A stretch of DNA of 56,423 nt from positions 1-56,423 of the forward strand of contig JAJFLH010000030.1 of NCBI GenBank assembly GCA_021772775.1, written 5' to 3'. Each line of letters opens with the position of its first letter. Position 1 is the first letter of the stretch. This document shows, one piece after another, positions 891-6,613 of this stretch. This DNA comes from Mariprofundus sp. (GTDB taxonomy: Bacteria; Pseudomonadota; Zetaproteobacteria; Mariprofundales; Mariprofundaceae). The notes under the pieces were generated by a model. The model had not been told where the DNA came from and searched no databases. It was given only the letters and a program-made list of their open reading frames with translations. The position numbers and the translations under genes are program-made.

Positions 891-979
891 TGGCTGTCGG
901 CATGGTTAAAGTGAGTGCATTTAGTAAACCGTCACCGTAATCACCCAATACATATCAAGAAATTCATTCACGTCATCGC
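891..979 (+). promoter_or_regulatory. Putative CRISPR leader
   Basis: This 89-bp non-coding segment lies between the toxin stop and the first repeat. The array is inferred to be transcribed on the plus strand, so this is the expected leader side where new spacers would be added. No clear promoter was found in it, which fits a model in which repeats carry their own promoters. The call rests on position only. Confidence 0.4.
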
Positions 980-1476
980 GTTGTGACTTGGCTTCAGGCA
1001 TCCGTTAGATACAATCACCGCCCATATCAAGACATAACCACATAGGTTGTGACTTGGCTTCAGGCATCCGTTAGATACAATTCCCTCATCGTTTCCAAAA
1101 CAATACGACAGGTTGTGACTTGGCTTCAGGCATCCGTTAGATACAATTAGCTGGTGATCAGCTTCACCGGCTGCGATGTTGTGACTTGGCTTCAGGCATC
1201 CGTTAGATACAATGTTGTCAATCTCGAACTTTTCACCAGTGAGTTGTGACTTGGCTTCAGGCATCCGTTAGATACAATCGTATTACCCCACTCAATGGAA
1301 GCCATTTTGTTGTGACTTGGCTTCAGGCATCCGTTAGATACAATGCAGCATTCATAATGGTGACGTCATAGCCCGTTGTGACTTGGCTTCAGGCATCCGT
1401 TAGATACAATATCCGAGATGTTGTTTGACTCTTTAATTGTGTTGTGACTTGGCTTCAGGCATCCGTTAGATACAAT
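980..1476 (+). CRISPR. Type II-C CRISPR array, 8 repeats and 7 spacers
   Basis: Eight identical 36-bp repeats start at 980, 1046, 1112, 1178, 1243, 1309, 1375 and 1441. Each begins GTTGTGACTTGGCTTC and ends CGTTAGATACAAT. Six spacers are 30 bp and one (1214-1242) is 29 bp. The GTTGT...ACAAT ends match the Neisseria-type II-C repeat, which fixes the crRNA sense as the plus strand. Each repeat ends in TACAAT, a good -10 box, with TTGGCT 16 bp upstream as a -35-like hexamer, so each spacer could have its own start site as known in Neisseria meningitidis. No repeat is degenerate, so the array shows no decay at either end. Spacer origins cannot be read without a search. Confidence 0.97.
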
Positions 1477-1496
1477 AGTTCATACATAAACAGTTG

Positions 1497-1525
1497 AAAG
1501 GTTGGAGAAATCCAACCTTTCTTGT
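1497..1525 (+). terminator. Terminator after the CRISPR array
   Basis: A perfect 10-bp stem (AAAGGTTGGA with TCCAACCTTT) encloses a GAAA tetraloop at 1507-1510 and is followed by CTTGTTCT. It lies between the last repeat and the convergent cas2 stop, so it may stop transcription from both sides. Confidence 0.8.
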
Positions 1526-1538
1526 TCTGAAAATAAGG

Positions 1539-1877
1539 CTAAAACATCTCAATTTGCGCAGGCCCCTGCTCTGTTTTTTTACGTCGTTTGCCATAAAACA
1601 CCTCCATTCTTCCAAATTGTTTATCTGTAATCTGGATCAACCGTACTTCACCATCTGGAGGCAATGATTTTTTCACACGTTCAAAATGCACAACTGCATT
1701 CTCTTCACTGGCACAATGTCGAATGTAGACAGAATATTGCATCATACCAAAACCATCCTTTAAAAGCATTTTGCGAAACTGTGTATAATGCTTACGTGCA
1801 GCCTTGGTATCGGTGGGTAGATCAAACATCGCGACAATCCACACCGAACGGAATCCTCCAAAAACCGTAATGGTCAA
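1539..1877 (-). CDS. cas2: CRISPR-associated endoribonuclease/integration subunit Cas2
   Basis: A 112-residue Cas2 with the first-strand motif VWIVAMFDLPT (Asp19 is the conserved metal-site position), followed by ARKHYTQFRKMLLKDGF and MMQYSVYIRHC, typical of type II Cas2. Cas2 dimers bridge two Cas1 dimers in the spacer integration complex. The start codon overlaps the cas1 stop (ATGA), and the gene ends 19 bp from the terminator of the convergent array. The residues before the first strand (MTITVFGGFRS) are longer than usual, but the overlap with cas1 supports this start. Together with cas1 and cas9, and with no csn2 or cas4, it defines a II-C locus. Confidence 0.95.
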   Translation of the reverse strand: MTITVFGGFRSVWIVAMFDLPTDTKAARKHYTQFRKMLLKDGFGMMQYSVYIRHCASEENAVVHFERVKKSLPPDGEVRLIQITDKQFGRMEVFYGKRRKKTEQGPAQIEMF

Positions 1878-2764
1878 GAATCAAATGCTGGAATCAGCAG
1901 ACATGGATCTTCCCCTGCCAATGATCGCAGTAGATTGGCCGATAAGAGATGCAATGCATTCATCAATGGACGACTTTCCCCTGACAAAAACACATCCTGA
2001 GACAGTACACCCAGCAATGCCTGTTTAATCTCAGGCGTCATGCTGTTTTCTCCCGCTTGCCAATGCTTACAAACTTCCCAGTCAATTAACGGCCGAAATG
2101 GCTCCATCACATCATCAGCAAGCGGATATGCGTTGTAGCGGTTATGGTGATGTAACCCGAAGGATGGGTGCATCCCTCCTCCACATAAAGCGCGGGCAAC
2201 AGCGGCCCTGAGCACCGTATAACCATAGTTAAGCATACCATTGGGAGGCAAACCATCGCGCCTGCGCCGGAAGTCTGGGCCAAACAGCGATTTCCAGTAG
2301 CGGGCAGCAGCCTGTGCCTCGTGGTTTTCCGTATCACCCGACTTCACCTTCTCAGCCAGAAAGCGAAGCCCCTCACCACCCTCTTTTTCACACTGATCCA
2401 GACACCATGCCTGATTCCTTATCTTGGCCTGTACAACCTGTTTCCAGAGTCTTTTCTTTGTCGGCACTTTAGCTGCCACCTGCACGCGAAACCGTTCGGA
2501 CTGCAGTGAGTTAGTATCTAATGGCAATAGCAGACCATTGGGATGATGATTCTTACCACAGATCACCACAGCCACATTGTTTGCCAACAATTCATTCAGT
2601 GCCGCATGACTGTAGGTACAACCAGGATGATCGACAATAAGCACCCCCATATCCTCAATGGGAACTGAGCCAACCACTTCACCTTCACGTTTTAATATCA
2701 GCTGCTTATTTTTCACTGAGAGATATACAGGTGCAGTGGATATTTCGATAATGCGCTTAATCAT
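1874..2764 (-). CDS. cas1: CRISPR-associated integrase Cas1
   Basis: A 296-residue type II Cas1. The N-terminal beta domain covers about residues 1-85 (MIKRIIEISTAPVYLSVKN, with VLIVDHPGCTYSHAAL). The C-terminal helical catalytic domain shows the expected metal ligands: Glu149 in HEAQAAARYW, the His cluster 205-207 in LHHHNRYNAYPLADD, and Glu221 in MEPFRP. It catalyses integration of new spacers at the leader-proximal repeat as a complex with Cas2. Its start lies 8 bp inside the cas9 gene and its stop overlaps the cas2 start, so the three genes form one coupled operon. Confidence 0.97.
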   Translation of the reverse strand: MIKRIIEISTAPVYLSVKNKQLILKREGEVVGSVPIEDMGVLIVDHPGCTYSHAALNELLANNVAVVICGKNHHPNGLLLPLDTNSLQSERFRVQVAAKVPTKKRLWKQVVQAKIRNQAWCLDQCEKEGGEGLRFLAEKVKSGDTENHEAQAAARYWKSLFGPDFRRRRDGLPPNGMLNYGYTVLRAAVARALCGGGMHPSFGLHHHNRYNAYPLADDVMEPFRPLIDWEVCKHWQAGENSMTPEIKQALLGVLSQDVFLSGESRPLMNALHLLSANLLRSLAGEDPCLLIPAFDS

Positions 2765-5815: not shown

Positions 5816-5845
5816 TTGCTATTTTCACTACTTTTGAAATATAGT
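5816..5845 (+). promoter_or_regulatory. Putative tracrRNA promoter
   Basis: TTGCTA (5816-5821) and TATAGT (5840-5845) are 18 bp apart on the plus strand. The predicted start falls at about 5852, the first base of the anti-repeat. The element lies in the short gap upstream of cas9, inside the predicted cas9 mRNA leader on the other strand. Confidence 0.6.
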
Positions 5846-5851
5846 TCTTCC

Positions 5852-5857
5852 ATTGTA
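5852..5857 (-). promoter_or_regulatory. Putative -10 box for the cas operon inside the anti-repeat
   Basis: On the minus strand the 5' end of the anti-repeat reads GATACAAT, the same TACAAT -10 box found at the end of every CRISPR repeat, pointing at cas9 about 55 bp away. No good -35 hexamer is visible on this copy, so its strength is uncertain. Confidence 0.4.
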
Positions 5858-5943
5858 TCTAACGGATGCCTCGAAGTCTTTTCATAACAAGAGAAATCGC
5901 AGGCAATGCTCGTTTTGATTCACATCTTCTCGAGTAACCTATC

Positions 5944-5967
5944 GCCCCCGGAAACGGGGGCTTTTTT
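5944..5967 (+). terminator. Intrinsic terminator of the tracrRNA
   Basis: GCCCCCG (5944-5950), GAAA loop, CGGGGGC (5955-5961), followed by six T residues. This is a perfect 7-bp GC stem, and it also serves as the terminal hairpin of the tracrRNA. Confidence 0.93.
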
Positions 5968-6067: not shown

Positions 6068-6613
6068 TCACATCATCCATCCCCCCCCCTCTCCTTCTTT
6101 TGCACCATGCACAAAACCGATGGGCCGTTTCTTGGTCTCTGGCGGCTCCATTAATTCTCGAATGGCATCAAAAACAACTGCAAACTGTTTGTCGTATTTC
6201 AGTTCAATTTTTTGAAGCCTGCGCGCCAAAGCTTTGTGATCGGCGGTCATCTGCCGTAGCTCCACAAAGGTGCGCATGATCTCAATATTTACCTGTACCG
6301 CCTGTTTACTTCTGAGAACACTGGAAAGCATTGCCACGCCCTGTTCAGTGAAGGCATAGGGAGGCGTTCTGCGTCCGCCCCTTCCCTTTGAGGTCACAAA
6401 TTGTGACCTCAAACGTTTGAATTCATCACTACTCAGCTGAAACATGAAATCTTCCGGGAATCGATTAATATTACGTTTCACTGCCTGTATCAGCACCTTG
6501 GTTTCCACGCCATAGAGTTCTGCCAGATCGGCATCCAGCATCACCCTCTCCTTTCGCATAAGAAGGATGGAGCGTTGAATTCTCTGCATGGGAATCAGGC
6601 CATCCCCACTCAA
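6068..6613 (-). CDS. ORF6N-domain (KilA-N-like) DNA-binding protein
   Basis: A 181-residue protein with an ORF6N domain over about residues 9-100: [30 protein letters not shown], then [18 protein letters not shown] and NIEIMRTF. This domain is common in phage and accessory-region proteins and is thought to bind DNA. A helical, charged tail (about 105-155) may form a coiled coil, and the C-terminus is glycine-rich. The start is a TTG at 6613 with AAAGGG 7 nt upstream. The internal ATG at residue 9 has poorer spacing. The gene sits between direct repeats (5979-6035 and 6669-6720), next to the tracrRNA terminator, so it is probably a later insertion. Its target and any link to CRISPR are unknown. 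Confidence 0.8.

Follow-up and report, generated by a model that had tools for sequence, protein, structure and literature searches.

The CRISPR array of this Mariprofundus sp. raises the question of where its guide RNAs begin. Each repeat ends in a TACAAT box that resembles a bacterial -10 element, and the original prediction proposed that every repeat carries its own promoter, in the mode described for Neisseria, and that crRNAs would need no processing by RNase III. The window analysed (the whole stretch of 56,423 nt) was examined for the gene content and orientation of the locus, and its repeat was compared with those of other type II systems.

Organisation of the locus and sense of the crRNA

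The locus (Table 1) is a complete type II-C CRISPR-Cas9 system, with cas9, cas1 and cas2 genes, a tracrRNA and a compact Cas9 (1012 aa) that carries HNH_4 and RuvC_III domains. The cas genes form a minimal minus-strand operon, cas9-cas1-cas2, followed by the array with nothing between, and neither csn2 nor cas4 is present at the locus. The nearest relatives of the Cas9 protein, full length or partial, are 70–75% identical (73–75% in two related genomes) and come from the same genus or family, which points to a Mariprofundaceae-like zetaproteobacterium, an iron-oxidiser-like bacterium, as host; they include those of the orthologous loci of related Zetaproteobacteria (G021/L039, G050, G070 and G064). 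The repeat, GTTGTGACTTGGCTTCAGGCATCCGTTAGATACAAT, is the same in 8/8 copies, starting at nt 980, 1046, 1112, 1178, 1243, 1309, 1375 and 1441 (repeat-to-repeat spacing 66, 66, 66, 65, 66, 66 and 66 nt). Six spacers are 30 nt long and one is 29 nt, the latter (nt 1214–1242) lying between repeats 4 and 5. The array was compared with phage genomes for spacer targets, with zero matches. The first 16 nt of the repeat gave eight single matches to viral contigs.

Table 1. Features of the type II-C locus and its surroundings.
Feature	Position (nt)	Strand	Remarks
5' flank, parE-like gene to repeat 1	891–979	+	best matrix score 6.8 vs 10.1 in repeats
CRISPR array	980–1476	+	8 identical 36-nt repeats, 7 spacers
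TTGGCT, -35-like hexamer	988–993 (repeat 1)	+	repeat positions 9–14 in all repeats
TACAAT, -10-like box	1010–1015 (repeat 1)	+	repeat positions 31–36
3' flank, array to cas2	1477–1538	+	conserved with L039
11-bp hairpin past last repeat	1496–1521		terminator-like on both strands
cas2	1539–1877	-	PF09827, TIGR01573
cas1, type II	1874–2764	-	TIGR03639, 283 bits
cas9, 1012 aa	2757–5795	-	TIGR01865, 723 bits
tracrRNA promoter, TTGCTA-18-TATAGT	5816–5845	+	TTGC kept in five orthologues
tracrRNA, divergent, upstream of cas9	5852–5961	+	fold z = -4.3
Anti-repeat	5852–5888	+	pairs with whole repeat

The tracrRNA is conserved in an alignment with four to five orthologues and ends in a terminator, a G+C-rich hairpin (nt 5944–5961) followed by T6; an Rfam search returned nothing at or above the gathering score. 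The repeat:anti-repeat duplex consists of 7 bp, a 3x3 internal loop and 26 bp (-50.7 kcal/mol), and in L039 an A-to-G change in the anti-repeat is matched by a T-to-C change in the repeat. Since the divergent tracrRNA fixes the orientation, the crRNA sense is the plus strand, and the assumption made on this point by the original prediction is borne out. Genes for RNase III and for a housekeeping sigma factor are both present. On the minus strand, the anti-repeat (nt 5852–5857) reads GATACAAT, which faces cas9 57 nt downstream and is kept in five orthologues; a TTG is absent from the -35 place. This could be a weak cas9 promoter or a mere reflection of tracrRNA pairing. The locus is bordered by a gene for an ORF6N-domain (phage antirepressor-like) protein just past the tracrRNA, upstream of cas9 (nt 6068–6613), and by genes for a Phd/YefM antitoxin and a ParE-like toxin directly upstream of the array on the same strand (nt 287–890). 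The II-C locus of F. columnare also has parDE genes inside (PMC8092290).

The boxes of the repeat and their known counterparts

In 8/8 repeats, TTGGCT at positions 9–14 and TACAAT at 31–36 are separated by 16 bp and the spacer follows directly, exactly as had been described (the TACAAT copies of repeats 2–8 end at nt 1081, 1147, 1213, 1278, 1344, 1410 and 1476). The two hexamers match TTGACA at 4/6 and TATAAT at 5/6 positions. The bases ahead of the second box are A28, G29 and A30, and the last nine nucleotides of the repeat, AGATACAAT, do not form an extended -10 element (TGnTAnnnT); the earlier remark that the TG is absent was correct in that the T is missing, though the G is present. A consensus scan of 1.2 kb (nt 700–1900) returned nine promoter-like sites, compared with 2.5 ± 1.6 in shuffled sequences; eight are the repeats and one lies elsewhere. 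As the copies are identical, the eight count as one observation. Of dinucleotide-shuffled repeats, 0.8% contained a pair of such hexamers (at least 5/6 and at least 4/6 matches, spacing 15–19) at any position and 0.28% had one at the 3' end. Scored with a simple sigma-70 weight matrix, the repeat site reached 10.13, equal to the tracrRNA promoter (10.19), and ranked among the top 0.025% of positions in the window, a group of roughly 28 sites of which 8 are the repeats.

Neisseria meningitidis has a similar II-C system, with the same gene order, a convergent array, a tracrRNA beside cas9 and a 36-nt repeat of the form GTTGT...TACAAT whose -10 box forms its 3' terminus. Transcription of Neisseria II-C arrays begins within the spacer and yields 24-nt guides, the length also predicted here. 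The start sites of the N. meningitidis array were reportedly measured by Zhang et al. in 2013 (Mol Cell), whereas those of the present array are predicted from sequence. The Neisseria repeat carries TGCTACAAT, an extended -10 element without a TTG, while the repeat described here combines its own box with TTGGCT at 16 bp. The two repeats had been called unrelated; their sequences do differ, but both have the GTTGT...TACAAT frame and, within the TG motif, the G. In the orthologous L039 repeat two positions differ, and TTGGCT and TACAAT are both kept.

The minimal II-C system of Campylobacter jejuni is also alike in its -10 box (GGTAAAAT) at the repeat end and in its tracrRNA pairing, and it too lacks the T of the TG motif, which provides a precedent for the array here (PMC3656092). 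Its repeat promoters have been measured; they start transcription inside the spacers, at position 5, and so define where the crRNA begins; its 3' end is produced by RNase III together with tracrRNA (PMC3656092). It differs in repeat sequence, and the RNase III-dependent 3' processing shown there is for the present array deduced by analogy (PMC3656092). In Clostridium cellulolyticum the array is likewise transcribed opposite to the cas genes and the repeat end is promoter-like, but with an extended -10; crRNAs arise from every spacer, with guides of 23–26 nt, and were observed in E. coli (PMC7038990). Reports of repeat promoters in II-C systems date back to 2013, and the literature regards such promoters as general to II-C (PMC12080349, PMC8092290), so that the array described here is a further example of a known mechanism.

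Conservation of the repeat end

The collection of Cas9 relatives covered named genomes as well as whole-genome sets, and the arrays of these relatives were oriented by geometry, with the crRNA sense opposite to cas9. An independent test using tracrRNA agreed with this orientation in 65 of the 74 cases where it was possible; of the nine disagreements, the flavobacterial loci and one other (L245) were re-oriented. There were 119 distinct consensus repeats, and the 115 that are 36 nt long were clustered at under 75% identity across positions 1–30, ignoring the box, to give 65 clusters (64 non-flavobacterial), a sample that may contain a few loci outside II-C, which have large Cas9 proteins. TAnnnT was found at positions 31–36 in 59/64 non-flavobacterial clusters and in five or fewer at any other offset. 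Over the 65 clusters, column counts were 63 for T31, 64 for A32, 54 for A34, 60 for T36 and 51 for G29. In a sigma-70 -10 element the most important positions are the counterparts of T31, A32 and T36, and G29 is equivalent to the G of an extended -10. A TTG at 8–10 or 9–11 was seen in 37/64 clusters (about 58%) and was absent from about 42%. When TTG at either 8 or 9 was counted, the trade-off between TTG and extended TG that would be expected of promoters was only suggestive (odds ratio 0.33, p = 0.06); it was not significant with TTG at 9 alone, and it was given no weight. By this comparison the shared core is the -10 box, not the extended TG or the TTG; a promoter per repeat in the Neisseria mode is well supported by this comparison, although the TTG does not behave as an essential -35. 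In one II-A control, the plasmid locus L252 with csn2, the repeat ends in GAAATGC and lacks TAnnnT.

Decayed repeats at the 5' end of the array, where the copies are oldest, are the II-C pattern. In arrays whose 5' end is complete, mutations were found in the first repeat in 48/89, and a mutated repeat at the 3' end was found in 3/107, one of which is a run of N, leaving two real cases. TAnnnT was retained in 42/43 mutated first repeats, among them every one of the 22 that carry at least five mutations (under uniform mutation 10.8 would be expected), and positions 31–36 had received 7 mutations compared with 42 expected. Positions 17–30 are spared about as much, however, so that segment 17–36 is spared as a whole, and crossing-over between repeats gives the same gradient; sparing of the box was accordingly set aside as specific evidence. 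Because repeat recombination could cause the gradient, box retention in the oldest repeats is consistent with promoter function but not decisive. The same 5' clustering was described by Feussner et al., who remarked that the extra repeat may need to remain a promoter (PMC12080349). Mutated oldest repeats do not spare the TTG, which survives in 16/25, and given this retention its status as a protected -35 is unsupported. Whether TTGGCT serves as a -35 is uncertain, and the case for a promoter is carried by the -10 half. T9 and T10 of the hexamer fall in the internal loop of the crRNA:tracrRNA duplex, where demands of the RNA or of Cas9 may account for their retention.

Predicted transcription of the array and alternative explanations

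Judged by its sequence and that of its relatives, the 36-nt II-C repeat very probably doubles as a sigma-70 promoter, one for each guide RNA. Each repeat would recruit RNA polymerase, with transcription beginning near nt 7 of the spacer to give a guide of about 24 nt per transcript (23 for the 29-nt spacer); the transcript would run into the next repeat and pair there with tracrRNA, the duplex would be cut by RNase III to produce the crRNA 3' end, and transcripts that continue would end at the hairpin beyond the array. In this scheme the activity of the promoter, the point of initiation and the trimming by RNase III are all predictions. Processing of the 3' end by RNase III is likely, because the gene is present and a 26-bp repeat:anti-repeat duplex is available. 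The claim that no RNase III is needed is retained for the 5' ends only, 3' ends being RNase III-made in C. jejuni (PMC3656092). With this repeat, a zetaproteobacterial lineage is added to the small set of II-C arrays in which crRNA transcription is believed to begin internally. If promoter activity is confirmed, every spacer would be an independent transcription unit, spacer order would be less important for expression, and one repeat-spacer unit could act as a self-contained guide cassette.

The flanks of the array fit transcription that starts inside it and ends after it, as the 3' hairpin is conserved while the 5' flanks are dissimilar. The hairpin is kept in L039 with compensatory stem changes (GAAAGGTTGGAGAAATCCAACCTTTC / GAAAGACTGGAGAAATCCGGTCTTTC), and the 3' flank is probably the leader (spacer-acquisition) side, based on conservation with L039 and on the polarity of II-C arrays, which grow at the last repeat (PMC12080349). 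The predicted promoter of the last repeat would yield an RNA of about 45 nt (nt 1483–1530) ending at the hairpin, possibly a small leader RNA. At the other end, an extraneous-crRNA hairpin was considered and rejected, its fold being not above shuffles (z = +1.4).

Transcription from outside, as a single precursor cut by RNase III and tracrRNA in the manner of II-A, e.g. by read-through from the parDE-like operon, would be compatible with the RNase III gene, with the long repeat:anti-repeat duplex and with the lack of a detectable terminator between the parE-like gene and repeat 1. It is very unlikely, however, given that no promoter-like site above background was found in nt 891–979 by matrix or consensus scan, that this flank has no evident similarity to that of L039, so that no external promoter is conserved, and that decayed repeats accumulate at the 5' end (48/89, compared with two real cases at the 3' end). 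A different explanation of the conserved TAnnnT end is that it is a recognition sequence of the Cas1-Cas2 integrase, with its likeness to a promoter secondary. In II-C, the last repeat has its 3' end next to the leader, where new spacers enter, for which reason that end could be fixed for integration; the polarity of II-C arrays (PMC12080349) and the position of the conserved flank here, on the 3' side, agree with this, and the coincidence of the box with the repeat end used for integration counts against reading it as a promoter. Nevertheless, the information pattern (T, A, A and T at positions 1, 2, 4 and 6, with a G two bases earlier) is that of a -10 element, and the II-C repeats of Bacteroidota end in GATATT, TTACAAC or CACAGG even though cas1 and cas2 are part of the Persicobacter locus. 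The TAnnnT of the mutated oldest repeats (42/43) is found at the non-integration end, an observation with which repeat recombination is also compatible. Integration is unlikely to be the primary reason for the box, and integration and promoter functions may coexist.

That the box is due to chance, or is a by-product of dyad symmetry in the repeat or of tracrRNA pairing, is extremely improbable. In its favour, the ends of type II repeats are palindromic in part, and in about 90% of loci the tracrRNA duplex takes in positions 31–32. TA occurs at 31–32 in 63/65 clusters, however, and at 5–6 in only 10/65, the i / 37-i symmetry being poor. Pairing maintains complementarity rather than sequence, as is seen at positions 17–28, which are paired in 92–100% of 52 loci yet mostly carry 0.1–0.5 bits (T26, 0.85); positions 31–32 carry 1.8–1.9 bits, and position 36 carries 1.6 bits although it is paired in only 48%. 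Chance is countered by the presence of TAnnnT in independent II-C repeats (59/64 clusters).

The promoter reading of the repeat may extend to hosts with a different sigma factor. The main sigma factor of Bacteroidota reads TAnnTTTG / TTTG and not -10/-35 boxes (PMC7366714), and the type II repeats of the sampled Bacteroidota lack a terminal TAnnnT. Two sampled repeats (L253, L256) and a published one (PMC5609589) have TTG at 2–4 and TAnnTTT(G/C) at 24–31, the spacing of Bacteroidota promoters. Written as TTG-N19-TAnnTTT(G/C), at repeat positions 2–31, this arrangement was found in Prevotella nigrescens and Persicobacter, and in the Bacteroides uniformis repeat as printed (PMC5609589). It was not clearly shown in flavobacterial repeats and L102, and for this reason a repeat promoter of the Bacteroidota host type stays a lead, possibly a new one. 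A general selection of II-C repeats as promoters in the sigma grammar of their hosts, TAnnnT at 31–36 where the host has an ordinary sigma-70 and TTG-N19-TAnnTTT(G/C) in part of the Bacteroidota, is a tentative and somewhat doubtful proposal; if true, the horizontal spread of II-C systems would need the repeat to be re-written.
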